DNA of 64,000 nt, taken from contig NZ_JABWGX010000010.1 of the NCBI RefSeq assembly GCF_021730435.1, forward strand, positions 1 to 64,000, read 5' to 3'. Source of the stretch: Xanthobacter agilis (lineage in GTDB: Bacteria; Pseudomonadota; Alphaproteobacteria; Rhizobiales; Xanthobacteraceae). Shown here piece after piece: positions 24,314-60,091 of the stretch; positions within the stretch are counted from its first letter, which is position 1, and each line of letters begins with the position of its first letter. Below the pieces are notes generated by a model. It was given only the letters and a program-made list of their open reading frames with translations. It had not been told where the DNA came from and did no database searches. The position numbers were made by a program, and so were the translations under genes.

Positions 24314-25360
24314 TCACGACGCGGCCCGCACCCCCTCCACCAACGCCTCCACATAAGCGAGCGGAGTTTCCGGGCGGATGCCGTGGCCGAGATTGAAAAT
24401 GTGGCGGCAGCCGGCGAAATCCGCGCGGATGCGCCGGATCTCGTCCTCCAGCGCCGCCCCTCCGGCGATCAACCGCAACGGGTCGAGATTGCCTTGCAGC
24501 GCCACTTTGTCCCCAAGGCGGGCACGGGCGGCGTGGCGATCCGCCGTCCAATCAAGGCCGATCGCGGTGATGCCCGCCGCCGCCAGCCGCTCCAGGGCTT
24601 CAAGGTTCGCGCCCTTGGGAAAGGCGATGACCCGGACGCCGGGATGCAATGCCTTCAGGCCGGAAACGATGCGCTTCAACGGTTCCACGCACCACATTTC
24701 GAACGAGAGCGGATCGAGCACGCCGGCCCAGGTATCGAAAATCTGCACCGCATCCGCGCCTGCCCGCACCTGGGCCGACAGATGGACGATGGACGCCTCC
24801 ACCAGACGATCGATCAGCGCCTGGAACACCGCCGGATCGCGCAGCGCCAGCAGGCGCGCGGGCGCCTGGTCGTCAGTGCCCTGCCCCGCCACCATGTAGG
24901 TTGCCACCGTCCAGGGCGCGCCGCAGAAGCCGATCAGCGCGACCTCCGGCGGCAGGTCAGCCCGCACCGCGGCGATGGCCTCATACACCGGCTCGGTACG
25001 GGCCGGATCGAGATGGTCGGGCAGCGCGGCGATGCGCGTTGCATGATCGACCCGCTCCAGGCGCGGCCCCTCGCCGGCGGTGAACGTGAGGTCCACGCCC
25101 AAGGCGTGGGGCACCACCAGGATATCGGAAAAGATGATGGCCGCATCGAAACCGAAGCGGCGGATGGGCTGGAGCGTCACCTCGGCGGCGAGCTTCGGCG
25201 TGTAGCACAGGGTGAGGAAATCGCCGGCGATGGCGCGCACCTCCCGGTATTCGGGAAGGTAGCGGCCGGCTTGGCGCATCATCCAGAGCGGAGGCGGATC
25301 AAGGGGCGTTCCGTCCAGGACGGCGAGGAAGGGCGAACGCGGTGCCGGAGAGAGGCTCAT
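24314..25360 (-). CDS. hemE: Uroporphyrinogen decarboxylase
   Basis: A 348-residue enzyme removing the four acetate carboxyls of uroporphyrinogen III. The signature [13 protein letters not shown] is near residue 27 and the second signature [15 protein letters not shown] near 145. In Caulobacter crescentus and Rickettsia prowazekii the replication origin abuts hemE. Here its start faces a short AT-rich gap with origin-like signals. It is transcribed leftward with hemJ. Confidence 0.97.
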
Positions 25361-25695
25361 CCCATGCCTTTAATAAATGAGAGTCTTATTTAAAGAGAGA
25401 GTCTTCAGAGTCTTTACGGTTGATTAACCAGTCGCAACGCCATCGACAACCAATCCACACGCCAACCCGATTCAGATACCGCATTTGCCGCAGGTGCGAG
25501 CCCCGGCGGGTGCCGGTTAATAAAGGATTAACGGGTCGGTGCCATCAGATATGCACATCGGCCCACAGGCCCCCCCGGAAACGGGTCCCTTCGAGTCGAA
25601 ATGTGGACGGCTATGCCCTCTTTCCCCAGGCCGATCTTGCGTCGGCGAAAGGAGCGTGCCTTCTTCAACAGCCTTCCACAGCCCTGGTGGATAAA
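25361..25695. other. Putative chromosomal replication origin (oriC) between hemE and ppsR
   Basis: Seen: an AT-rich start (25364-25435). Five GANTC sites at 25381, 25399, 25408, 25469 and 25593, the first three inside AGAGTCTT octamers. A TTAA-N7-TTAA CtrA box at 25517-25531, and a TTAACCA half-site at 25424. DnaA-box-like 9-mers ATATGCACA (25549) and GGTGGATAA (25686), each one mismatch from consensus, and CAATCCACA (25451) with two. Known: the origins of C. crescentus and R. prowazekii lie beside hemE and RP001, the PPDK-regulator family. Inferred: gene orientation switches here from leftward to rightward for about 8-10 kb each way, and parAB is 8 kb away. No gene lies in this gap. Confidence 0.68.
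25517..25531 (+). promoter_or_regulatory. CtrA-type box TTAA-N7-TTAA
   Basis: TTAATAAAGGATTAA matches the full CtrA consensus spacing. In Caulobacter CtrA binds such sites in the origin to block initiation. The site is 165 bp upstream of the ppsR start and 157 bp from hemE. Confidence 0.65.
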
Positions 25696-26550
25696 GTGAC
25701 GCCGACGAAAGCCCCGACCGACAGCTATTTTCACCTGCATCTGGTGTCGGATGCGACGGGCGAGACCCTCATCACCGTGGGCCGCGCCGCGTGCGCCCAA
25801 TATGCGAATGTGCTCGCCATCGAGCATGTGTATCCGCTGGTTCGCACCATGAAGCAGCTCGACCGGGTGCTGAGCGAGATCGAGTCCAATCCGGGCATCG
25901 TGCTTTACACGCTGGTGGACAATGAGATCCGCGGCCGGCTCAAGGAGCGCTGCCGGGATCTCGGCGTGCCCTATCTGTCGGTGATGGCGCCCATCGTGCG
26001 GCTGTTTCAATCCTATCTCGGGGGTGAGCCGACGCCGCGTATCGGCGGCCAGCATTCCCTTGACGCGGTCTATTTCAAGCGCATCGATGCGCTGAACTTC
26101 ACCGTGATGCATGACGACGGGCAGATGACCGAAGATCTGGAGAACGCCGACGTGGTGCTCCTCGGGGTCTCGCGGACCTCCAAGACGCCGACCTCCATCT
26201 ATCTGGCCAACCGTGGCATCAAGACCGCCAACATTCCCTTGGTGCCCAATGTGCCTCTGCCGTCCAACATCGAGACGCTGAGGAAGCCGTTGGTGGTGGG
26301 CCTGGTGGCAAGTCCGGAGCGGATCGTGGAGATCCGCCAGAACCGCCTGCTGGGTCTGAACGCCGCCGACACTGGGACCTCCTACACCGACCGGCAGGCG
26401 GTGTCGGAGGAGATCGCCTTTTCCCGCCGCCTATGCGCGCGCAACGGCTGGCCCCTTATCGACGTGACCCGCCGCTCCATCGAGGAGACGGCAGCCACCA
26501 TCCTGGCGCTGTTCAACGAGCGTCGCCGCCAACAGTTGGCCGAGACCTGA
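25696..26550 (+). CDS. Pyruvate, phosphate dikinase regulatory protein (DUF299/PSRP)
   Basis: About 284 residues. The N-terminal core is [16 protein letters not shown]. The ATP/ADP-binding loop [18 protein letters not shown] is near residue 155. PSRP is a bifunctional kinase/pyrophosphorylase that switches PPDK or PEP synthase on and off. No ATG is near the conserved start. GTG 25696 is preceded by GGTGG, and GTG 25687 is also in frame. This family includes Rickettsia RP001, the gene flanking the origin, and it is followed by maf after 4 bp. Confidence 0.9.
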
Positions 26551-31051: not shown

Positions 31052-31067
31052 TGTTTCACGTGAAACA
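31052..31067. other. parS centromere site 1
   Basis: A perfect 16-bp palindrome TGTTTCACGTGAAACA, identical to the consensus ParB-binding parS. It lies in the mnmE-mnmG gap. ParB nucleates here and spreads as a CTP-dependent clamp. Confidence 0.95.
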
Positions 31068-33143: not shown

Positions 33144-33824
33144 GTGGTGAGCCAGCGGCGCGGTGTCGAAGCGAGTGTTTCACGTGAAACATTCCAGCGC
33201 CTGGACGCGCTTGTCGGCTTGCTGCTGAAGTGGCAACGGACGATCAATCTCGTGGCGCCGGCGACGCTCCCGCAGGTCTGGGCGCGGCATGTGGCTGATT
33301 CGCTTCAGCTGGTGGCGCTTGCACCCACCGATGCGACCCGCTGGGTGGATCTGGGGTCCGGCGGAGGATTTCCAGGCCTCGTGGTGGCCGCCGTGCTCGC
33401 CGAGCGGTCCGGCGCCGCGGTTGATCTGGTGGAAAGCGATAGCCGTAAGGCCGCTTTCCTGCGCGAAGCGATTCGCGTCATCGGCTTGCCGGGACGGGTA
33501 CATGTCGCGCGGATCGAGAAGGTGGGGGCGGAGCTGGCGGGTGGAACCCATGTGGTTTCCGCCCGCGCGCTTGCGCCTTTGCCTAAATTGCTCGATCTCG
33601 CGGCGCCTTTTCTCGCCGCAGGTGCAGTGGGGCTGTTTCTGAAGGGGAAGGATGCCACAGGCGAATTGACCGAGGCGCGTAAAGGCTGGACACTCGACGT
33701 CGAGCTCGCGCCCAGCCACACCGACCCCGATGGCCGGATCGTGGTTGTAAAGAGCGCCAGACCCCTTGCAGCTGCCGCCCATGCGCGTTCATCCGCTCGC
33801 GAGCGGCCGGATGCGGCGGGATGA
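33144..33824 (+). CDS. rsmG: 16S rRNA (guanine-N7)-methyltransferase RsmG
   Basis: About 226 residues from GTG 33144; GTG 33147, or ATG 33051 overlapping mnmG, are alternatives. It methylates G527 of 16S rRNA. The SAM site is [16 protein letters not shown]; RsmG features [14 protein letters not shown] and [13 protein letters not shown] are present. The N-terminal SVSRETFQ is encoded by a parS palindrome, so the protein sequence is constrained by the centromere. I prefer the GTG start because the longer N-terminus is arginine-rich and not family-like. Confidence 0.88.
33176..33191. other. parS centromere site 2
   Basis: A perfect TGTTTCACGTGAAACA, the same 16-mer as site 1, embedded in the 5' coding part of rsmG. 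Confidence 0.95.
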
Positions 33825-33879
33825 TGACCCGCCGTGTTGCGACCCTATTTCATCCGATTTGATCGAGGATCGTCGACCC

Positions 33880-34725
33880 ATGAGCGATCTCAATATGTCC
33901 GCTCCCCCGCCCGCCCCCGCCCCCGCCCGGCCGCGCGTGCTGGCGCTGGCCAACCAGAAGGGGGGCGTGGGCAAGACCACGACCGCCATCAACCTCGGAA
34001 CGGCGCTCGCCGCTATCGGTGAAAAGGTTCTGGTGGTCGATCTTGATCCGCAGGGCAATGCCTCCACCGGGCTCGGGATCGACCGGCGGGCGCGCCAGCG
34101 CTCCACCTATGACATCTTGGTGGGAGATGCGAGCTTTCGCGAAACCATCATGGAAACGGCGGTTCCCGGGCTGCATGTGGCGCCGGCGACCCTCGACCTG
34201 TCGGGGCTGGAGCTGGAGATCGCATCGGCTCGCGATCGCGCGTTTCGCCTGCGCAATGCGTTGCAGGGGCTGGCGGAGGACGACGCCGCGGCGCGCTACA
34301 GCTATGTTCTGGTGGACTGCCCGCCGGCGCTCTCCTTGCTCACCGTCAACGCCATGGCGGCCTCCGACGCCATCTTGGTGCCGCTTCAGTGCGAGTTTTT
34401 CGCGCTCGAGGGCTTGTCCCAGCTCATGAAGACGGTGGACCAGGTGCGCACGGGGCTGAACCCGAACCTGGTGATTCACGGCATCGTCCTCACCATGTAT
34501 GACGGGCGGAACAACCTGTCGGAACAGGTGGTGCAGGACGTGCGCGCGTTCATGGGGGACAAGGTGTACGACACCATCATTCCGCGGAACGTGCGCATTT
34601 CCGAGGCGCCATCCTACGGCAAGCCGGCGTTACTCTATGACCTGAAGTGCGCGGGCTCGCAGGCCTATTTGAAGCTGGCGTCCGAGGTCATTCAGCGCGA
34701 GCGGGCCGCACGGGCCGCCGCTTGA
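33880..34725 (+). CDS. parA: Chromosome partitioning ATPase ParA
   Basis: A 281-residue ParA/Soj ATPase from ATG 33880. The deviant Walker A is KGGVGKTTTAINLG, Walker A' VVDLDPQGNASTGLG, and Walker B VLVDCPPALSLLTVNA. The proline-rich N-terminus (PPPAPAPARPR) is a short linker. ParA forms ATP-dependent dimers on DNA and pulls ParB-parS complexes. It precedes parB by 27 bp. Confidence 0.96.
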   Translation: MSDLNMSAPPPAPAPARPRVLALANQKGGVGKTTTAINLGTALAAIGEKVLVVDLDPQGNASTGLGIDRRARQRSTYDILVGDASFRETIMETAVPGLHVAPATLDLSGLELEIASARDRAFRLRNALQGLAEDDAAARYSYVLVDCPPALSLLTVNAMAASDAILVPLQCEFFALEGLSQLMKTVDQVRTGLNPNLVIHGIVLTMYDGRNNLSEQVVQDVRAFMGDKVYDTIIPRNVRISEAPSYGKPALLYDLKCAGSQAYLKLASEVIQRERAARAAA

Positions 34726-34752: not shown

Positions 34753-35652
34753 ATGTCCATGGCGGATGAACCGCGCTCCCGGCTCGGCCGGGGGCTTGCC
34801 GCGTTGATCGGCGAGATGAACGATCCGCAGCCCGAGGCTGCCGCGCCCGCCGGGGCGCGCGCGGGGGTGCAGCGCCGTCTGCCCATCGAGCACGTCCGTG
34901 CCAATCCGCGCAATCCGCGCCGGGCCTTTCTTGAGGAAGGGCTGGAGGATCTCACGGCTTCTATCCGGGAAAAGGGGATCATCCAGCCCATCGTCGTGCG
35001 GCCGCTGCCCGGGATCAATGCCTTTGAGATCGTCGCCGGCGAGCGGCGCTGGCGCGCGGCGCAGCGGGCGGCCTTGCACGAAGTGCCGGTGATCGTGCTG
35101 GAGCTCTCCGATCGCGAGGCGCTGGAGATCGCGATCATCGAGAACGTGCAGCGGGCGGATCTCAATCCGGTCGAAGAGGCTCAGGGATACGAGGCCTTGA
35201 TGGCGCAGTTCGATTATTCACAAAGCGATTTAGCAAAGGTGATTGGCAAGAGCCGGAGCCATATCGCCAATACGCTCCGGCTGCTGAAGCTGCCGGCGGA
35301 GGTGAAGATCTATCTGGAAGACGGCCGCCTCACCGCTGGTCATGCGCGGGCGCTGATTGGCCATGAGCACCCCGAGCAGATCGCCCGGCAAGTGGTGGAG
35401 AAGGGTCTCAACGTCCGTGACGTGGAGGCGCTGGTCAAGGCCCATGGGGCGGGCGCCGGCGAACCGCTGAAGCGCAAGCCGGCGCCGGAGAGCGCCAAAT
35501 CGGCGGATGTCCGGGCTCTGGAACGGCGCCTGGGCGAGGCGCTGGGATTGAGCGTATCGCTGGACAGCCGGGGCGAAGCGGGCGAGCTGCGCATCCGTTA
35601 TGCGAGCCTCGATCAATTGGACGATCTGTGCCGGCGGCTCGGCGTGGACTGA
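34753..35652 (+). CDS. parB: Chromosome partitioning protein ParB
   Basis: A 299-residue ParB/Spo0J. The N-terminal ParA-interacting peptide (RSRLGRGLAALIGEM), the CTP-binding domain with GERRWRAAQ, the HTH YSQSDLAKVIGKSRSHIANT, and a C-terminal dimerisation domain are all in order. It binds parS. Three matching sites lie in this window. It is followed by a strong hairpin terminator shared with convergent mucR. Confidence 0.96.
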   Translation: MSMADEPRSRLGRGLAALIGEMNDPQPEAAAPAGARAGVQRRLPIEHVRANPRNPRRAFLEEGLEDLTASIREKGIIQPIVVRPLPGINAFEIVAGERRWRAAQRAALHEVPVIVLELSDREALEIAIIENVQRADLNPVEEAQGYEALMAQFDYSQSDLAKVIGKSRSHIANTLRLLKLPAEVKIYLEDGRLTAGHARALIGHEHPEQIARQVVEKGLNVRDVEALVKAHGAGAGEPLKRKPAPESAKSADVRALERRLGEALGLSVSLDSRGEAGELRIRYASLDQLDDLCRRLGVD

Positions 35653-41704: not shown

Positions 41705-41720
41705 CGTTTCACGTGAAACG
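41705..41720. other. parS centromere site 3
   Basis: CGTTTCACGTGAAACG is a perfect palindrome. It shares the 14-bp core of sites 1 and 2, and only the outermost base pair differs. It lies 6 kb beyond parB. Confidence 0.88.
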
Positions 41721-45615: not shown

Positions 45616-46668
45616 TCAGGCATCGGCGGCCTGATCCTCGCTCGGCTGCAGATCGTCCAGCGAGGCGAGGCGCACATTGCCTTTGCCGCTTTTCTTCACC
45701 GCGTACATGGCGGCGTCGGCCAGGCGCATGAGGGTGGCGTCGCTGGCGGCATGGAGGGGATAGAGGGCGATGCCGATGCTGGCCCCCACGCTGACGGTGG
45801 CCGGCGGCGAGGCTTGGCGCAGGACGTAAGGGTTGCGCAGCGAGTCGCACAGCCGCTGGCCCTGGGCAAGGGCCACCTGCGTGTCGGCCACGTCCAGCAT
45901 GATGATGGCGAACTCGTCGCCGGACAGGCGCACCGCGAAATCCTCGCACCGGAGGTTGGCCCGAAGCCTTTGGGCGATGGCGCACAGGAGCTCGTCGCCG
46001 GCCGCGTGGCCGTGGCGGTCGTTCACCTGCTTGAAGCCGTCGATGTCGATGTAGAGCAAAGCGAAGGCGGTGGAATTCTGCCGCGCCTGGGCGAAGGCGC
46101 GGGTGAGGTGCTCCATGAACAGGATGCGGTTGCCGAGGCCGGTCAGGGAATCGTGGGTGGCCATGTGGCGCACCTGCTTTTCCACCCGCCGGCGTTCCTC
46201 GATCTCCACCTCGAGCTGCCGGTTGCGCTTCTCCAATTCTTCCATTGCCGCCTTGAGCCGCATCTTGGAGATGTGCAACTCCAGGAATACTGTGACCTTG
46301 GACAGCAGCACCGCATCATTGATGGGCTTGGCGATGTAATCGACTGCGCCGAAAGTATAACCCTTCAGGCGATTGATGTCGTCGAGATAGGCCGCGGTTA
46401 CGAACACGATGGGGATGTCGCAGGTGGCCGGGTCGTTGTTGAGCAGCGAGGCCACCTCGAAGCCGTCCATGTCCGGCATCTGCACGTCGAGCAGGATCAG
46501 CGCGAAGCGGTGGTCGAGGCACAGCGCCAGCGCCTCGTTGCCCGATTTCGCCTCGTAGATGTCCGCATCCACCGGCGCCAGCAGGCGGCGCATGCCGGCG
46601 AGATTGGCGGAGACGTCGTCCACCACCAGGATCTTGGGACGGGGTTCGGTGCCGGAGGGCTCGGTCAT
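45616..46668 (-). CDS. Receiver-GGDEF diguanylate cyclase response regulator
   Basis: A 350-residue protein from ATG 46668. The receiver domain (residues 10-130) has the phospho-Asp in ILLDVQMPDMDG. A coiled linker (EELEKRNRQLEVEIEERRR) joins it to a GGDEF domain whose active site is SGDEF. An RxxD inhibitory (I) site (RCED) sits just before it, so product inhibition is likely. It probably makes cyclic di-GMP on phosphorylation. Its ATG overlaps the cheB stop (ATGA). It ends the kinase-cheR-cheB operon. Confidence 0.9.
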   Translation of the reverse strand: MTEPSGTEPRPKILVVDDVSANLAGMRRLLAPVDADIYEAKSGNEALALCLDHRFALILLDVQMPDMDGFEVASLLNNDPATCDIPIVFVTAAYLDDINRLKGYTFGAVDYIAKPINDAVLLSKVTVFLELHISKMRLKAAMEELEKRNRQLEVEIEERRRVEKQVRHMATHDSLTGLGNRILFMEHLTRAFAQARQNSTAFALLYIDIDGFKQVNDRHGHAAGDELLCAIAQRLRANLRCEDFAVRLSGDEFAIIMLDVADTQVALAQGQRLCDSLRNPYVLRQASPPATVSVGASIGIALYPLHAASDATLMRLADAAMYAVKKSGKGNVRLASLDDLQPSEDQAADA

Positions 46669-47273
46669 GACCGGCTGGCCTTGTTGATGTGGTCGGCGAG
46701 GGCTTCGATGGGCGCGCACAGGTCGGCTCCGGCGCGCTCAAGGGCGGCGCGCGGCATGGTCGGAACTTCGGCATCGTCCGGAGCTTGAACCAAGGCCTGA
46801 CCTCCCCACTGACGGATGTGCGCAAGACCTTCCGCGCCGTCGCTGCTGGCTCCGGTGAGAACGACACCAATAAGGCTTTTCTGGTACGCGCGGGCCGCGG
46901 TCTCGAACAGGACGTCGATCGACGGGCGGGAGAAACACACTTTCGGATCCACGGAAAGAGAAAAGTATCGGCCGGGCTCGATCTGCAGGTGGTAGCCGCT
47001 GGGCGCGACGTGCACCCGGCCGGCGGTCACCGGCATCCGTTCCCGCGCCAGGACCACCGGCAAGGCGGAGCGGCGGGCAAGCACGTCGGCCAGCAGGTCG
47101 GGTCCATCGGCACCCACATGGTTTACCACCACGACGGCGGCGGGCAATGCGGGATCGAGCCGTCGCAGCAGCCTTTGGAGGGCCCCCGGCCCGCCCGCCG
47201 ATGCACCGATGACCACGGCCCATGTGTTTCGGCCCAGTTCTCGGCCCACGTTTTGGCCCGCGTCTCGGCCCAT
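46665..47273 (-). CDS. CheB methylesterase/deamidase without receiver domain
   Basis: A 202-residue stand-alone CheB domain from ATG 47273. The Ser-His-Asp triad is visible in VVIGASAGG, VVVVNHVGAD and VVLTGASSDGAEG. The N-terminal receiver domain of classical CheB is missing. It lies between cheR and the GGDEF gene in one operon with a hybrid kinase. CheB here may modify a receptor or regulate the kinase, as in non-chemotaxis CheR/CheB modules. Confidence 0.9.
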   Translation of the reverse strand: MGRDAGQNVGRELGRNTWAVVIGASAGGPGALQRLLRRLDPALPAAVVVVNHVGADGPDLLADVLARRSALPVVLARERMPVTAGRVHVAPSGYHLQIEPGRYFSLSVDPKVCFSRPSIDVLFETAARAYQKSLIGVVLTGASSDGAEGLAHIRQWGGQALVQAPDDAEVPTMPRAALERAGADLCAPIEALADHINKASRS

Positions 47274-47299
47274 GTCATGTCGTCCCGATCCGCTCTTGT

Positions 47300-48142
47300 T
47301 CAGGTGCCGCTCTTGCGTCGGTAGATCTGCGCATCCCCGTCGATCAGTTGGAACTTCTCGCGGGCGCTGGCGAACTGCATGTTCTCGCGGGTGCCGATGC
47401 ACAGGAAGCCCCCGCGCACGAGACTTTCGGCGAACATGCCCAGGACCCGGTCCTGCAGCGGCGTCGTGAAATAAATCAGCACGTTGCGGCACAAGATGAG
47501 GTGGGCCTCACAGAACACCGTGTCGGTGACCAGATTGTGCTCCGCGAAGGTCACGCGGGAGATGAGGCGCTCGTCCAGCTTCAGGAAGTCGTAGCGCGCG
47601 TGGTAGTAATCGGAGAGGCTTTTGGTGCCGCCGCTGTCGAGATAGCGCCGCGCCGCGTCGCGGGCATCCTGCAGCGGAAAGATGCCCTCCCGCGCCCGCG
47701 CCAGCGCTTTGGCCGAAATGTCGGTGGCATAGATGCGCGCCCGCTCGTACAGCCCGGCTTCCACGAGCAGGATGGCGAGCGAATAGACCTCCTGCCCATG
47801 GGCGCAGCCCGCCTGCCAGATGTTGATGGACGGGTAGGAGGAGAGGAGCGGGAACACCTTTTCCTTCAGGGCGCGAAAGGTGTGGGGATCGCGGAACAGT
47901 TCCGAGACCGGCACCGACAGGCTCGAGATGGCCTCGGTGATGCGCTCCGGGCTGTGCAGCAAAAGGTCGGTGAGGGCGGTGATGGTGGGGGTGCCGAACT
48001 GCATGTTCAGATTGCGCACCCGCCGCGTGAGCGAGGCCCGGCTGTAGCCGGAGAAGTCGTAACCGTAGCGCCGGTCGAGGGCGGTCACGAACAGGTCCAG
48101 CTCCAGATCCTCCAGCGCGGCGAGATCATGGGGATCGGTCAT
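47300..48142 (-). CDS. CheR-type protein-glutamate methyltransferase
   Basis: A 280-residue protein from ATG 48142, overlapping the kinase stop by 4 bp (ATGA). The N-terminal CheR_N helical domain (RYGYDFSGYSRASLTRRV) precedes the SAM-dependent domain with WQAGCAHGQEVYSLAI and LILCRNVLIYFTTPLQ. It methylates glutamates of receptors in chemotaxis. No receptor gene is nearby, so the target may be elsewhere. Confidence 0.92.
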   Translation of the reverse strand: MTDPHDLAALEDLELDLFVTALDRRYGYDFSGYSRASLTRRVRNLNMQFGTPTITALTDLLLHSPERITEAISSLSVPVSELFRDPHTFRALKEKVFPLLSSYPSINIWQAGCAHGQEVYSLAILLVEAGLYERARIYATDISAKALARAREGIFPLQDARDAARRYLDSGGTKSLSDYYHARYDFLKLDERLISRVTFAEHNLVTDTVFCEAHLILCRNVLIYFTTPLQDRVLGMFAESLVRGGFLCIGTRENMQFASAREKFQLIDGDAQIYRRKSGT

Positions 48143-51100
48143 CGGGGCGGCAACCAGGCGCGGATCATGGAGAGCAGCTTCGGCACGTCGATGGGCTTGG
48201 AGAGATAGTCGCTGGCGCCGGCGGCGAGGCACTTCTCCCGGTCGTCCTTCATGGCCTTGGCGGTGAGGGCGATGATGGGCAGCTTGGCGAACTGATGCCT
48301 TTTGCGGATTTCGGTCATGGCCTCGTAGCCGTCCATCACCGGCATCATGATGTCCATGAGCACGATCTCGAGATCGGGATGGGCCTCGAGCTGGCTCAGG
48401 GCCTTGGCGCCGTCCGGTGCCAGGGTGACGTCGATGCCCTTGCCGCGCAACACCTTGGCGAGGGCGTAGATGTTGCGCATGTCGTCATCGACCAGCAGCA
48501 GGCGGCGGCCTTTCAGGTCGCCGTCGGGGTGGTCGGAGAGGGCCTTCGCCTCGTGCCGGACCGAGTGCAGGAAGAGGCTGACCTCGTCCATGAGCCGCTC
48601 CGGCGAGCGGGCGCCCTTGATGACGATGCTGTCGGTGAAGGCGCGCAGCTTGAGGCTTTCCTCGGGGGTCAGGTCGCGGCCGGAATAGACCACCACCGGC
48701 ACCGGCCGGGTGCCGGCCGCGATCCGTTCCAGCAGCTCGAAGCCCGACATGCCCGGCAGGCCCAGGTCGAGCACCACGCAATCCACCTCTTCCCGGCCGA
48801 TCAGGTCGAGCGCCTCCTCGCCGCTGCCGGCCTCCAGCACCTGCACCTGCTCCCCGCCGATGAGCTTGCGCGCCGCGACACGGGCGGCGGGGTCGTCGTC
48901 CACCACCAGCACGCGGCGCGGCTCGCCGGCGGAAAAATGGGTCAGGGTCGCGAGCGCGCCATTGAGGTCCTCGGCGCTCACCGGCTTGGTGAGAAAGCCC
49001 ACGGCGCCGAGGTCGCGGCCGCGCTTGGCCTCGTCGAGGGCGGAAACGAAGTGCACCGGGATGTGCCGCGTGGCGGCATCGGCCTTCAGGCGCGCGATGA
49101 CGGTCCAGCCGTCCATGCCGGGCAGCATCACGTCGAGCAGGATGCCGGTGGGCTTGTAGCGGCGGGCGAGCTCCAGCCCGCTTTCGCCATCGGCCGCGGC
49201 AAGCACCTGATAGCCCTTGCGCCGCACCAGGGTGACGAGGGTGCGCGCGAACGCGGGGTCGTCCTCCACCACGAGGATGGTGGTCAGCCCCTCCTGGAGC
49301 GAGGCCCGGTCGTCCTCGATCACCAGCGCCGGGCGCGGATAGGGCGCGCGGGGCGTTTCGGGCGGGGCGGCGCGGGCGGGGGCCGGCGCGTCCTCGTCCT
49401 CCGGCGCGCCGATGGGCAACGTGAGCCGGAAGGTGGAGCCGGCGTCGAGGCGGCTCTCCACGGTCACGTCGCCCCCCAGCAGGCGGGCAAGGCGCTGGGT
49501 GATGGCGAGGCCGAGGCCGGTGCCGCCGAACTGTCGGCGGGTGGAGGAATCCACCTGCTCGAACGCCAGGAAGATGGCTTCCGTCTTGTCATCGGGAATG
49601 CCGATGCCGGTGTCGGTGACGCTGATCGTCAGGGTCTCGGCCGCCCCCTGGGAGAAGGTGACGGTGACGGTACCCTCGCTCGTGAACTTGAAGGCGTTGC
49701 CGAGCAGGTTGTTGGTGATCTGCTCCAGCTTGCCGTCGTCGGTCATGATCCGCGTCGGCGCGTCGGGCTGGACGATGACGGTGAAGCAGACGCCCTTCTC
49801 CTGCGCCACATGGCGGAAATTGCGCTCCATGCGGGTGGCGAGGGCGGGGATGGACACCGGCTCGTGCACGATCTCCATCTTGCCCGCCTCCACCTTGGAC
49901 AGGTCGAGGATGTCGTTGATGAGCCGCAACAGGTTGGTGCCCGAGGCGTGGATGATGCCGGCGGCCTCCACCTCGTCGGTATCGAGGTGGCCGTTGTGGT
50001 TCTCGGCGAGGTCGTGGGCGAGAATGAGCAGGCTGTTGAGCGGCGTGCGCAGCTCGTGGGACATGTTGGCGAGGAATTGTGACTTGTACTGGTTGGCGCG
50101 GGCGAGCTCGTCGGCGCGGGCTTCCGCGTCTTGGTTGACCGCTTCGAGCTGCGCTTTCTGGGCGGTCAGCTCCTCGGAATTGCGGCGCAGGTCCGCATTG
50201 GAGCGTTGCAGTTCGTCGGCCTGCACGCGGAGTTCCTCCTCGGAAGCGGCGAGCCTCTGCGATTGCCCCTGAAGCTGCTCGTTGGTGGCGCGCAATTCCT
50301 CCTGCTGGGTGCGCAGCTCTTCTTCCGCCACCCTGAGATCGGAGGTCTGGCGCTGGGTCTGTTCCAGAAGCTCCAGGGTGCGGACGGCGCGATTCAGATT
50401 CTCGAGCGACAGCGCCACCACCGGCACCACGTCGCGGAGCAGGAGCTCGCGGGGACCGGTGAAGGGCGTGAAGCTGGCCAGTTCCAGCACCCCGAGCAGG
50501 CTGTTCTTGCTGACGATGGGCAAGGCCACCACCGCCCGCGGCACCGCTTCCCCGGTGCCGGAGTGAATGCGGACGTAATCGTCTGGTACCGGGGTCAGCA
50601 TGATCGGCTTGCGCTCGCGCGCAGCCTGGCCCACCAGGCCCTCGCCCAGCTTGTAGCGGGTCGAAACGTGGCGTCGTTCGGTGAAGGCATAGCTGCCGGT
50701 GAGGACCAGCGCGTTGCTGGCCGCGTCGAACGCGTAGAACACACCGACCCCGGCTTCGAGGCGGGGCGCCAGCTCGGCCAGCAGGTCGTCGGCGAAGGTG
50801 GCGACATCCTCGGCCCGCTGGAGTTTCGCCGAGACCGCTCCGACGCCGGTCTTCACCCAGTCCCGGTCGTAGGTCTCGATGGCCATCGTCTTGAACACCG
50901 AGAGCGCACGGGCGATGGTGCCGACCTCGTCGTGGCGGTGGGTGTAGGGGACTTCGACGCCGTGGTCGTGGGCCGCGAGCTGCTCCATGCGGCTTGCCAA
51001 CAACCGCAGCGGCCGCGTGATGAACCGCGCCGCCAGCAACAGCGCCGCGAGGCCGACGGCCAGGGTCGCGACGAGGGCGACCACGTCCACGAGCTTCAGC

Positions 51101-56165: not shown

Positions 56166-56254
56166 TGCCATCGGCCCCGATCGTCCGGGGTTCCGGCGCG
56201 CGGATCGCAACCTCTTCTTAACCTTGCTGGCTTTCAAAGATTTCAAAAACCCTG

Positions 56255-56283
56255 AAGGGGAGGTCCGCGGGCCTCCCCTTTTT
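56255..56283 (+). terminator. Intrinsic terminator after the acetylation operon
   Basis: A 9-bp stem AAGGGGAGG (56255-56263) with CCTCCCCTT (56272-56280), an 8-nt loop, and a TTTTT run through 56283. It is the best terminator in the window, so the NfrA-like gene needs its own promoter. Confidence 0.88.
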
Positions 56284-56358
56284 GCTGCGCCGACGCGCAA
56301 TGGATTGTTTAAAAACAAAATTTCACGTCAGCGCGCGGCTTCTCCAGTAGCCATGGCG

Positions 56359-56373
56359 TTAATGGAGGGTTAA
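56359..56373 (+). promoter_or_regulatory. CtrA-type box TTAA-N7-TTAA upstream of the NfrA-like gene
   Basis: TTAATGGAGGGTTAA is 90 bp before the start codon. Further TTAA half-sites follow in the AT-rich stretch to 56440. It is the second full CtrA box in the window. Confidence 0.5.
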
Positions 56374-56461
56374 GAAGACTGGGTAATGTTTACTTTGGAT
56401 TAACATTCGAATACTTATTAAGGTTAACTGCTATTTAAGTAATGTCGGCGATGGTGAGGCC

Positions 56462-59400
56462 ATGAGCACCGCCATCCATCTCCCCTCTGCCGCGCTTCCC
56501 GTCCTCGACCGGGAGAGCGCGCGGCTTCCGCGGCATCTTGCCTTGAGCCTGATGCTGGCCGCTTCGGTCAGCGTCCTGAGCCTTGGCGCGGCGGGCAGCG
56601 CGGGTGCGCAGCCGTCCGGGCAACCGGTGCTGGGCGCGCCCACGCCCGCCAATCCGACACCGGCTCCCAGCCACGCGGCGCCGGGCGCGGTGAACCCGGT
56701 TCCGGACCCCGTTTCCTCCACCCCGGCCCCGGGTGGTGCGTCGGGGGGGATGGAGCCGGTGCCCGCGGCTCTCACGGGCGCGGCATGGAACACGGCAAAC
56801 CAGGGCTATCAGGCCTTCCAGCAGAAGAATTTCGCCCGGTCGGCCTATCTGGCGCGCGAGGTGCTGCGGCTGCGGCCGGATGCGGCGGCGATGTGGATTT
56901 TGCTGATGGATTCCCTCGATGCCGAGGGCAAGCTTTCCGAATCAGTGGCGGCTGGCAACGAGGCCATTGCCGCGGGCGTGAAGGATCCCTCGCTCCGGGC
57001 GCGGCTGGTGGCGCAGAGCAAGGTGCTGGCCCAGGCGCCGTCGCTCGCCGCCAACAAGGCGCTGGAGGCGAACGACCCCGCGAAGGCGGTGGATGAGGCG
57101 CGCCGGGCCATCATGCTGGTGCCGGACGATCTCAGCTACCGCATGCTGCTGGTCTATGCGCTGATCGCCCAGAAGAATTATGAGGCGGCGGAGAAGGCGG
57201 CCGGGGATGCCACCGAGGTCGATCCCCATTCGTTCCTGCCACGGAGCCTGCGGGGATTCCTGCGTGTGCGGCTCGGACAGGTGGCGGGGGGCGAGCGCGA
57301 TTTCGACGAAGCCCTCAAGGACGAAGTCCTGTCCGGCGACACCGAGCGCGACGCGCGCCTGGTCGCGGCCGACGCGGCGCTGTCGGTCGGCCACATTGAC
57401 CGCGCCCTCAAGATCCTGGAGCCCCTGGCCCACAGCGACAACAAGGCGGTGCTCTCCCGCCTGTCGGTGGCGCGGGCGGCGCAGAAAAACCCGCGGATCA
57501 TTCCCGAGAAGGCCAACCAAACCCTGCCGGTGCCCTTCCAGAAGTGCGTTGACACCCCCTATGGACCCTCGTGCGCGCTGGTGCCGGCCGATGCGCCGCC
57601 CGGCAGCGGCGTCACCGACACCCCCGGCTTCTACGCCGCCCAGGACGCATTCGAGGCCTATCGCAAGGGCGACGACGTGGTGGCGGAAAAGCGCATTCGC
57701 GAAGCGCTTCAGTTCAACCCCAAGAACGGGGCCTGGCATCGCCTGCTCATCGACACGCTGGAACGGGCCGGCAAGCTGAAGGAACTGGAGGCGGCCATCA
57801 ACGACGCCGCCGCCAAGGCCGGCGACGATCCGGCCCTTCAGGCCCTGCGCGCCGTCACCGACAAGCGCATCGCCGAGCCCGATGCCAACCAGGCCATCAA
57901 GGAGCTGTCCGCCGGGCGGCCCAAGAACGCCGTCGCCCTCGCGCGCAAGGCGGTGGAGCGCGCGCCGAATGTGATGCCGTTCCGCCTCATCCTCATCAAT
58001 GCCCTGATGGCCTCCGGCCAGACCGAGGACGCCGAGGCCGAGGCGGCCGCTGCCGTCAAGGAGGACGAGAACGACCCCCTGCCGCGTGTGCTCGACGCCT
58101 GGCTGCTGGACAGGCTCGGCCGGCGCGAGGCGGCGGCGGCCGAGTTCGACAAGGTGCTGGGCTCCAATCTGCTCACCGACGCGGAAGAGGTGAACTATCG
58201 CCTCATCGCCGCCAATGCCGCCCTGGTGGCCGGGCAGGGCGAGGACGCGCTGAAGATCCTGCAATCCCTCACCGACGCCAAGAACAAGGATGTGGCCGCC
58301 TATCGCCGCACGGCCGAAGCGCTGGTGAAGACGCCCAACATGAAGCGCCCGGCGCTGGTGCCGCCCACGGTGCTGTGCCAGCCCACCAAATATGGGGTGA
58401 TCTGCTCGGTGTTCTTCGGCGCGCCCGGCGGGCCGGGCGGGGCCGGGCTCAACCCGGCAAGCCCCGGCTATGCCGCCGCCAGCGCCGCTTATACCGCCTT
58501 CGGCCGGCGCGACTATGCCACCGCCATCCGCGAGATCCGCAGGGCCATCGACGCCGAGCCCGGCAATGCCAGCTACCGCATGCTGCTCATGAACGCATTG
58601 ATGGCCGCGGGCCGCTATGCCGAAGCCGAGGGCCTGCTCGACCAGCTGTTGGCGGCGAGCCCGCGCGACGCGGCGCTGCTGATGCAGCGGGGCAACCTGC
58701 GCATGCAGGCCCACCAATATGCGGGCGCCATTCGCGACTTCCGCGCCGCCCTGGCCTCGGGGCGGCTCTCGCCCTCGGAGGCGCGCACGGTGCGCTTCTC
58801 CTTGGTGGATGCCGCCTTGCAGGCGAAGGATCCGGAGCTTGCCATGTCGGTGCTCCAGCCGCTGGCGAACGAGCAGAGCTATGAGGTGCAGGCGCGCCTC
58901 GGCTACACCTACTTGGCCCTTGGCGACAAGGCGCAGGCGCTTGCGGCATTCGAGGTGGCGGCGCGCCGCGCCCAGGGCCGCGAGCAGCGCAACGCCATGC
59001 TCACCGCCCGCGTCAACGTGCTGGTGCAGCTCAACCGCAAGGACGAGGCGCGGGCCCTGTTCGCCGCCGCGTACGAGAGTGGCGACCTCAGGAACATGCG
59101 GATGGTGGATCTCGCGGTGCTGGCGGGGCAGGCGGGCGAGGATGATCTCGCCTTCCAGCTGTTCCAGCAGGCCAACGACAAATGGCAGCTGCGGGGCACC
59201 AATCTCATCAATGCCGGCTACAATGCGCGGCGCACCTACAACAATGCGGTGGCGGTGGATTACTTCAAGCGCGCCATCGACGAGAATCGCAAGGGCGAGC
59301 TGCCGCTTGATCCGCAATACGTCTTCGGCCTCCGGCGCGAGGTGGCGGAACTGAGCCGCACCTGGGGCGCCTATGCCTCCATCAGCTACGGCGCGGTGGG

Positions 59401-60091
59401 CATCGCTCCCGGCTCCTACCTCGCCACGACCACCCCCGGCGCCTATCACACCATCGGCGCCGGCGGCGAACTCTATTGGCGTCCGCCGGGCATTGGCTAT
59501 CGCGACGGGGCCATCTTCGAGCTGTTCGTGCGCGGTTACACCACACTCTATGACGAGAACGGCGGCACCACCGGCATCGAGACCTTCCAAGGCAGCGTCG
59601 GCGCGCGCTGGAAGCCCATCAAGACCGAGAACCTGGTGCTGGAAGTGTCCTATCTCTTCCCCACCGGCGGCACCTCGCGCGAGGATGTGCTGTTGCGGGC
59701 GGCCTATTCCAAGGGCGAGGGCACCGACCTGCGGGTGGACGAGCCCAATTGGCGGGCTTGGCAGGTCTATGCCGACTATAATTACTACACCATGCTGCCG
59801 GAGACGGTGGCGAGCTTCGAGGTGCGTTACGGTCACGCCTTCCGGCTCGATCCCATCAGCGACCATCTGGTGCTGTGGCCGTTCGTGGCCCTCGGCGGTG
59901 CCTATGACAACGGCTATGCGACCCCGTTCGCCATGGGCGTCGGCCCCGGCGTGAGCCTGCGCTACTGGTTCAACGAGGACGAATACCAGGCACCCCATTC
60001 CTACCTGGACCTCATGGCCCAGTACCGCTTCAAGCTCGCCGGCGACGAGCGCGCCGAGGGCCTGTTCGCCGGCGCCTTCCTCTCCTATTGA
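56462..60091 (+). CDS. TPR and beta-barrel outer-membrane export protein (NfrA/BcsC type)
   Basis: A 1209-residue protein. The signal peptide is about residues 1-50 (ending GAAGSAGA). After a proline-rich linker come three TPR modules of about 281 residues each, starting near residues 107, 388 and 668. The junctions carry Cys pairs CVDTPYGPSC (about 361) and CQPTKYGVIC (about 638). From about residue 960 to the end the sequence is beta-barrel-like and ends YRFKLAGDERAEGLFAG with a final aromatic residue. The C-terminus matches NfrA, the phage N4 receptor component. A TPR-barrel fold of this kind exports polysaccharide (BcsC, PgaA, NfrA). The acetylation operon lies just upstream. Confidence 0.85.
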   Translation: MSTAIHLPSAALPVLDRESARLPRHLALSLMLAASVSVLSLGAAGSAGAQPSGQPVLGAPTPANPTPAPSHAAPGAVNPVPDPVSSTPAPGGASGGMEPVPAALTGAAWNTANQGYQAFQQKNFARSAYLAREVLRLRPDAAAMWILLMDSLDAEGKLSESVAAGNEAIAAGVKDPSLRARLVAQSKVLAQAPSLAANKALEANDPAKAVDEARRAIMLVPDDLSYRMLLVYALIAQKNYEAAEKAAGDATEVDPHSFLPRSLRGFLRVRLGQVAGGERDFDEALKDEVLSGDTERDARLVAADAALSVGHIDRALKILEPLAHSDNKAVLSRLSVARAAQKNPRIIPEKANQTLPVPFQKCVDTPYGPSCALVPADAPPGSGVTDTPGFYAAQDAFEAYRKGDDVVAEKRIREALQFNPKNGAWHRLLIDTLERAGKLKELEAAINDAAAKAGDDPALQALRAVTDKRIAEPDANQAIKELSAGRPKNAVALARKAVERAPNVMPFRLILINALMASGQTEDAEAEAAAAVKEDENDPLPRVLDAWLLDRLGRREAAAAEFDKVLGSNLLTDAEEVNYRLIAANAALVAGQGEDALKILQSLTDAKNKDVAAYRRTAEALVKTPNMKRPALVPPTVLCQPTKYGVICSVFFGAPGGPGGAGLNPASPGYAAASAAYTAFGRRDYATAIREIRRAIDAEPGNASYRMLLMNALMAAGRYAEAEGLLDQLLAASPRDAALLMQRGNLRMQAHQYAGAIRDFRAALASGRLSPSEARTVRFSLVDAALQAKDPELAMSVLQPLANEQSYEVQARLGYTYLALGDKAQALAAFEVAARRAQGREQRNAMLTARVNVLVQLNRKDEARALFAAAYESGDLRNMRMVDLAVLAGQAGEDDLAFQLFQQANDKWQLRGTNLINAGYNARRTYNNAVAVDYFKRAIDENRKGELPLDPQYVFGLRREVAELSRTWGAYASISYGAVGIAPGSYLATTTPGAYHTIGAGGELYWRPPGIGYRDGAIFELFVRGYTTLYDENGGTTGIETFQGSVGARWKPIKTENLVLEVSYLFPTGGTSREDVLLRAAYSKGEGTDLRVDEPNWRAWQVYADYNYYTMLPETVASFEVRYGHAFRLDPISDHLVLWPFVALGGAYDNGYATPFAMGVGPGVSLRYWFNEDEYQAPHSYLDLMAQYRFKLAGDERAEGLFAGAFLSY

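Follow-up and report, generated by a model that had tools for sequence, protein, structure and literature searches.

Direct control of the replication origin by CtrA is best known from Caulobacter and has been reported to be absent in some relatives that have been well studied. Sinorhizobium and Brucella belong to the same order as Xanthobacter and Hyphomonas to a different one; in Caulobacter, as in Xanthobacter, parS is located near the origin. In the Caulobacter origin, Cori, five CtrA boxes are described alongside G-boxes and an IHF site, the CtrA sites overlapping those for DnaA and IHF (PMC4285127, PMC1914354, PMC4468827), and its G-box is given as TGATCCACA (PMC4285127). The origin of S. 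meliloti is reported to lack CtrA motifs and not to be bound by CtrA (PMC4433202), and for B. abortus, too, CtrA is reported to leave the origin unbound (PMC2877005). A CtrA ChIP-seq peak adjoining the origin has been reported for Hyphomonas neptunium (PMC7200025), and the predicted origins of Rickettsia and Wolbachia are described as having a hemE flank and predicted intergenic CtrA boxes (PMC1914354).

Closer to the organism studied here, Lee et al. 2008 predicted the origin of A. caulinodans ORS571 from the gene cluster typical of alphaproteobacterial origins together with GC skew and KOPS, and the legend of their origin-cluster figure includes X. autotrophicus, S. meliloti and Brucella beside Azorhizobium (PMC2443382). 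The location of the origin in the Xanthobacter family has thus very probably been predicted already. The accessible text of that report mentions neither hemE nor ppsR by name, so it is we who infer that the predicted location is the hemE-ppsR gap, and no analysis of CtrA, CcrM or DnaA sites is noted in it.

In this work we analyze the hemE-ppsR intergenic region of Xanthobacter agilis, which an earlier note had put forward as a putative chromosomal origin, within a 64,000-bp stretch of DNA (the window) that corresponds to positions 1-64000 of contig C1 in a 4.81-Mb draft genome assembly of 66 contigs. The new part of our results is a conserved pair of CtrA boxes; the location of the origin itself is not new. 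A literature search across titles and abstract openings, mainly of freely available papers, yielded no description of such a box pair in the Xanthobacter group.

Gene context and replication polarity

The putative oriC, delimited on the basis of sequence and flanking-gene profiles, comprises the 326 bp between hemE and ppsR (25361..25686) and has a GC content of 55%, compared to 68% in the window. It is flanked on the left by hemE, encoding uroporphyrinogen decarboxylase on the minus strand (24314..25360; TIGR01464, 387.5 bits for a cut-off of 303), and on the right by ppsR, encoding the PPDK/PEP synthase regulator on the plus strand (25687..26550; PRK05339, 349.7 bits for a cut-off of 225; PF03618). 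With both profile scores above cut-off and the genes divergent, the flanks named in the earlier note are confirmed, as is the switch from leftward to rightward transcription, with rho, hemJ and hemE on the minus strand and ppsR, maf, aroE, coaE, dnaQ, mnmE, mnmG, rsmG, parA and parB, in this order, on the plus strand. The gap itself had been given as 335 bp; its location stands, but ppsR likely starts at the GTG at 25687, so that the intergenic region ends at 25686 and the last nine bases of the longer interval are coding.

The arrangement is widely kept. The hemE gene is divergent from and adjoins ppsR in 64 of the 67 relatives examined, the other three (L026, L028 and L075) having no hemE match and being excluded, and it is divergently adjacent to ppsR in 53 of 60 genomes examined across the class. 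These 60 were drawn from the 77 genomes, own genome aside, that remained once the 36 of 114 in which a ppsR match was absent had been set apart. Twelve loci (L032-L034, L040-L045, L048, L049, L062), taken as duplicates of whole-genome loci, were removed before counting. Rfam and tRNA scans of the 64-kb window returned no matches, and neither did a search of a plasmid collection with the hemE-ppsR region.

A motif search for parS identified two perfect palindromes, at 31052..31067 (TGTTTCACGTGAAACA) and 33176..33191, located 5.4 and 7.5 kb to the right of ppsR, as well as a weak parS-like site with two mismatches at 41705..41720. The right-hand gene cluster includes parA (33766..34725, ORF coordinates with an approximate start) and parB (34753..35652), both on the plus strand, so that two perfect parS sites and parAB lie within 10 kb of the gap. 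One further match with a single mismatch is present elsewhere in the genome, on contig C9. Each of four relatives (G001, G003, G012 and G013) harbors two parS sites 7.3-9.6 kb to the right of ppsR, one of them perfect and the other with a single mismatch. All further matches in these genomes, with two mismatches, fall within ~110 kb of ppsR, and a reversed parS control pattern yielded one match per strand in G001 only.

The placement of parS bears on the possibility that the origin lies elsewhere, for instance at dnaA, and that the hemE-ppsR gap represents no more than an ancient, conserved neighborhood. In Caulobacter, dnaA is close to the origin; here its distance to hemE and parS is 130-168 kb in three relatives (G001, G003 and G012) and 2.05 Mb in G013. 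The best parS is nonetheless found with hemE/ppsR rather than with dnaA in all five genomes, G013 included.

Strand asymmetry was assessed both locally and in complete relatives. GC skew in the window changes from -0.037 on the left of the gap to +0.053 on its right, and takes values of +0.014 to +0.040 across the next four 20-kb stretches. It falls slightly below zero at ~51-61 kb, counter to the origin reading, and in the part of the window that lies to the right of the gap KOPS point in the wrong direction (3 forward, 8 reverse), compared to 11 and 5 in the next 80 kb. G001 was sampled in 40 20-kb stretches and fitted with a two-arm model. Its ppsR lies at 5.226 Mb, compared to a best GC-skew origin of 5.22 Mb (on a 20-kb grid) and a KOPS origin of 5.18-5.20 Mb, and dnaA provides a worse fit than hemE for both measures. 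For G003 the best GC-skew and KOPS origins fall at 1.90-1.96 Mb and 2.92-2.98 Mb, respectively; hemE, at 2.39 Mb, is not the best fit, but it still beats dnaA for both. In G013 hemE explains almost nothing, with residuals of 0.0143 of 0.0151 for GC skew and 10.77 of 10.77 for KOPS, and a position near dnaA (position 0) fits better (0.0137 and 9.42), the best KOPS fit being 9.17 at ~4.25 Mb. Both GC skew and KOPS polarity run opposite to expectation over the first 1.85 Mb of this 5,308,934-bp contig (loci L090-L109 and L158-L177), from which we infer a large inversion or a misassembly. Genome-wide GC skew, which had been proposed as a check on the origin, hence points cleanly to the gap in G001, is ambiguous in G003 and offers no fit in the apparently rearranged G013, these being the three complete relatives sampled.

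The dnaA gene of the own genome (G000) is found at C63:140346-140831, on a contig other than that of the putative origin. The 80 kb around it are skew-positive throughout, and there is thus no switch at dnaA. An origin at dnaA, which is favored by the fits in G013 for GC skew and KOPS, is rejected on parS placement and on the skew fits of G001 and G003, with G013 as the exception; taking into account also the footprint-like conservation of the gap detailed below, we regard an origin outside the gap as very improbable. Gene context, parS, the local flip in GC skew and this conservation together support the original proposal that the hemE-ppsR gap is, very probably, the chromosomal origin. A search for a dif site with an E. 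coli-like core was set aside after matching in one of five genomes, with three mismatches and on a contig of a draft assembly.

The CtrA box pair and its conservation

The full CtrA box reported in the earlier note is recovered as an exact match to TTAA-N7-TTAA, TTAATAAAGGATTAA, on the plus strand at 25517..25531 (P=0.0015 against dinucleotide shuffles of the gap). A further box that had not been noted, TTTACGGTTGATTAA, is located on the same strand at 25413..25427, with one mismatch to the consensus in its left half. We designate these, from left to right, box 1 and box 2, both supported by consensus match and alignment; they are spaced 104 bp apart, and the presence of two boxes with at most one mismatch has a P of 0.004 in dinucleotide shuffles of the gap.

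We aligned 24 gaps of the Xanthobacter-Azorhizobium-Aquabacter clade, comprising the window and 23 others, four of them from metagenome assemblies. The group was defined by a ppsR identity of at least 77% before boxes were counted, and the 23 other gaps are 58-88% identical to that of the window. Two candidate boxes with at most one mismatch occur in all 24 gaps, which are related rows, some of them near copies (e.g. L016 and L036), rather than independent tests. Box 1 and box 2 are each exact in 20 of the 24, and the right half of box 1, GTTGATTAAC, is present in every one. The boxes are separated by 104 bp in 20 gaps, by 93 bp in two close relatives and by 102 and 105 bp in one gap each; the 93-bp rows are short by 11 bp, or approximately one helical turn. 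Mean column agreement amounts to 0.98 for box 1, 0.96 for the first DnaA-like block and 0.88 for box 2, compared to 0.50-0.68 in spacers 1-5 and 0.61 in the spacer between the boxes.

Conserved runs were taken as five or more columns with 85% agreement. They consist of AGAGAGTCT (25396-25404), TTTACGGTTGATTAAC (25413-25428), TCGACAACCA and TCCACAC (25443-25460), GGTTAA (25515-25520), which covers the left half of box 2, the right half being more variable, CACAG (25564-25568), TGTGGA (25602-25607), CTTGC (25636-25640), TGCCTT (25657-25662) and TCCACAG (25675-25681). Distances among them are also rigid: the GAGTC site beside box 1 is 20 bp from GTTGATTAAC in 24 of 24 gaps, GTTGATTAAC is 35 bp from the TCCACA core in 23 of 24, and the two boxes flank this invariant core.

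The spacing between the TTAA half-sites is specific. Across the 24 clade gaps, 40 exact TTAA pairs are found at a spacing of 7 bp and none at each of 12 other spacings (3-15). In 41 other gaps, mostly from Hyphomicrobiales, there are nine exact pairs at 7 bp versus 0-2 at any other spacing, and 27 versus 6-16 if one mismatch is allowed. The 53 class-wide gaps contain seven exact pairs at 7 bp versus 0-4 at other spacings, with no 7-bp excess among one-mismatch pairs (18 vs 10-23). The nine exact boxes outside the clade are found at differing offsets (L018, L021, L029, L030, L031, L052, L060, L061 and L065), the gaps of L060 and L061 being very similar to each other, and their excess over other spacings suggests that CtrA may have been recruited repeatedly to origins in Hyphomicrobiales. 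In the sampled sequence of three relatives, with the gap left out, four exact boxes occur in 2.39 Mb, and none occurs in 160 kb of the own genome outside the window.

Within the window, the only other exact boxes are at 56359 and 56424, in an AT-rich intergenic region (56166-56461) that adjoins an AlgX-like gene upstream and, downstream, a gene whose product is a TPR protein of 1209 aa that includes an NfrA_C domain (56462-60091, plus strand). The boxes make this locus a candidate for an envelope or exopolysaccharide operon under CtrA control.

The genome encodes a CtrA at C10:53018-53686 that shares 90% identity with a CtrA query sequence across 223 aa and contains receiver and Trans_reg_C domains. 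It also encodes DnaA, a CcrM-like methyltransferase on contig C11 (N6_N4_Mtase and RAMA domains) and a GcrA-family gene, although the search for the latter also matched Sulfolobus among the controls. Sixteen further matches in the genome, 26-40% identical to the CtrA query, extend over the greater part of it, raising the question of whether the TTAA-N7-TTAA pairs could be bound by another factor, such as a CtrA-paralogue response regulator or a nucleoid protein. The conserved GTTGATTAAC, which extends beyond a TTAA half-site, would also fit such a factor. We nevertheless deem this improbable, given that the half-site pairs of the clade show high specificity for a spacing of 7 bp, which is that of the published CtrA consensus (PMC4285127, PMC1914354), and that CtrA itself is so close to the query. 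Taken together, the conservation of the sites and the presence of CtrA, CcrM-like and GcrA-family genes support the reading that the region may be under CtrA and CcrM control. Separately, a region on the minus strand of the window (46288-49278) accounts for four matches to the CtrA query, three of them inside a single 1270-aa open frame that probably encodes a multi-receiver signalling protein.

Candidate initiation elements and a proposed mechanism

All five GANTC (CcrM) sites reported in the earlier note are present in the gap (P=0.01, dinucleotide shuffles of the gap), a number that no other 335-bp stretch of the window matches (67 GANTC in 64 kb). Three are clustered next to box 1, at 25381..25385 (kept in 19/24 aligned gaps), 25399..25403 (the GAGTC site, kept in 24/24) and 25408..25412 (12/24); those at 25469..25473 (2/24) and 25593..25597 (4/24) are not conserved. 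The three octamers also described there were found as three copies of AGAGTCTT, a count reached in 0 of 2000 shuffles. The AT-rich start of the gap was likewise reproduced: a composition scan identified a stretch with 70% AT over 60 bp (25368..25427), a candidate unwinding element in a window with an AT content of 32%, where one other place exceeds 70% AT at this length.

The three DnaA-box-like 9-mers, starting at 25451, 25549 and 25686 (minus strand), do exist, but they are weak (P=0.036, 500 shuffles). The first (site a, 25451..25459, plus strand) reads CAATCCACA in the window, with at most two mismatches; its TCCACA core is present in 24/24 gaps, and in many relatives it reads CGATCCACA, one base off the Caulobacter G-box. 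The second (site b, 25549..25557, plus strand; ATATGCACA in the window, again with at most two mismatches) contains CCACA or CCCCA in 21/24 rows, the window being among the three without it. The third (site f, 25686..25694; TTATCCACC on the minus strand, also with at most two mismatches) overlaps the ppsR start and keeps GTGGA.AA in 19/24. The alignment reveals two additional DnaA-like cores: TGTGGA at 25602..25607 (core d, minus strand, 24/24) and TCCACAG at 25675..25681 (core e, plus strand), which is TCCACAG or CCACAG in 23/24. Counting both strands, the gap contains four CCACA cores versus 0.57 expected, a value reached in 0 of 500 shuffles. The DnaA box TTATNCACA occurs in none of the 24 clade gaps, and a loose IHF consensus, in a scan that a diverged site would escape, is absent from the gap of the window and present in one of the 24.

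The main rival to a role in replication accepts the gap as the origin and takes the CtrA and CcrM sites to be promoter elements of hemE and/or ppsR, with no gating of replication. In Caulobacter, transcription is controlled by CtrA, CcrM and GcrA. Most CtrA-activated promoters of that species are reported to have one site at -35 (PMC11264516). Box 1, separated from the hemE start codon by 53 bp that hold the GANTC array, is at a plausible promoter distance upstream of this gene. Box 2, however, has hemE at a distance of 157 bp and ppsR at 156 bp, and a scan of 25200-25800 limited to sigma-70-type promoters found none. Furthermore, the distance between the boxes is nearly constant even though the spacer is poorly conserved, as would be expected of a nucleoprotein complex formed jointly on both boxes more than of a simple promoter. 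On balance we consider the promoter reading unlikely.

We favor instead the reading in which the gap is an oriC that combines opening by DnaA, repression by CtrA through two boxes and a methylation mark set by CcrM, and we judge these propositions, taken jointly, to be probable; replication start, the binding of DnaA and CtrA, repression and the effects of methylation are all read here from sequence. DnaA would load onto the string of weak TCCACA-core sites and open the AT-rich edge on the hemE side. Phosphorylated CtrA (CtrA~P) would occupy both boxes, which lie around the most conserved DnaA-like site and, at 104 bp or about ten helical turns, would be on one face of the helix, thereby blocking opening and keeping the origin closed in whichever cell type or phase has active CtrA. 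Hemimethylation of the invariant GAGTC beside box 1, a CcrM site, could mark an origin that has just been copied, possibly acting through GcrA on a promoter on the hemE side.

Comparison with described origins

The region resembles Cori in several respects. Both are gaps between divergent hemE and a ppsR homologue (COG1806), both contain CtrA boxes of the form TTAA-N7-TTAA and an AT-rich stretch (of ~40 bp in Cori), and both have a site at or close to the G-box sequence. They differ in that there are two CtrA boxes here instead of five and that no IHF consensus is found in the gap of the window. CtrA and DnaA-like sites, which overlap in Cori, are separate here: box 1 ends at 25427 and site a starts at 25451, whereas box 2 ends at 25531 and the next DnaA-like site starts at 25549. 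A GANTC array lies beside box 1, and for Cori no such array is mentioned in the accessible text of the three reports (PMC4285127, PMC1914354, PMC4468827). We class the region among the hemE-type alphaproteobacterial origins; it may function in the manner of a CtrA-gated one, but two features of Cori, the overlap of sites and the IHF site, fail to appear.

Other described origins differ further. Those of Rickettsia and Wolbachia are reported to contain TTATNCACA DnaA boxes and IHF sites, their number of CtrA boxes ranges from 0 to 7, and in Wolbachia more than 600 kb separate hemE from the ppsR homologue (PMC1914354). Hyphomonas neptunium is described with a single CtrA site that lies beside the origin (PMC7200025).

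A rigid two-box layout is kept by a lineage within the order of Sinorhizobium and Brucella. This would open, in the culturable Azorhizobium and X. autotrophicus, the question of how control of an origin by a response regulator arises, and a second question of how CtrA can exert such control without an evident IHF site. With the origins of S. meliloti and Brucella reported as unbound by CtrA (PMC4433202, PMC2877005), the Xanthobacter-Azorhizobium-Aquabacter origin looks like a lineage-specific CtrA-gated type, without the IHF site and the overlapping boxes of Caulobacter. More tentatively, and with somewhat less than even confidence, we propose that this clade gained a compact CtrA switch independently of Caulobacter, in which phased boxes 104 bp apart would bridge a G-box-like site, with a CcrM mark 20 bp away and no IHF antagonist.
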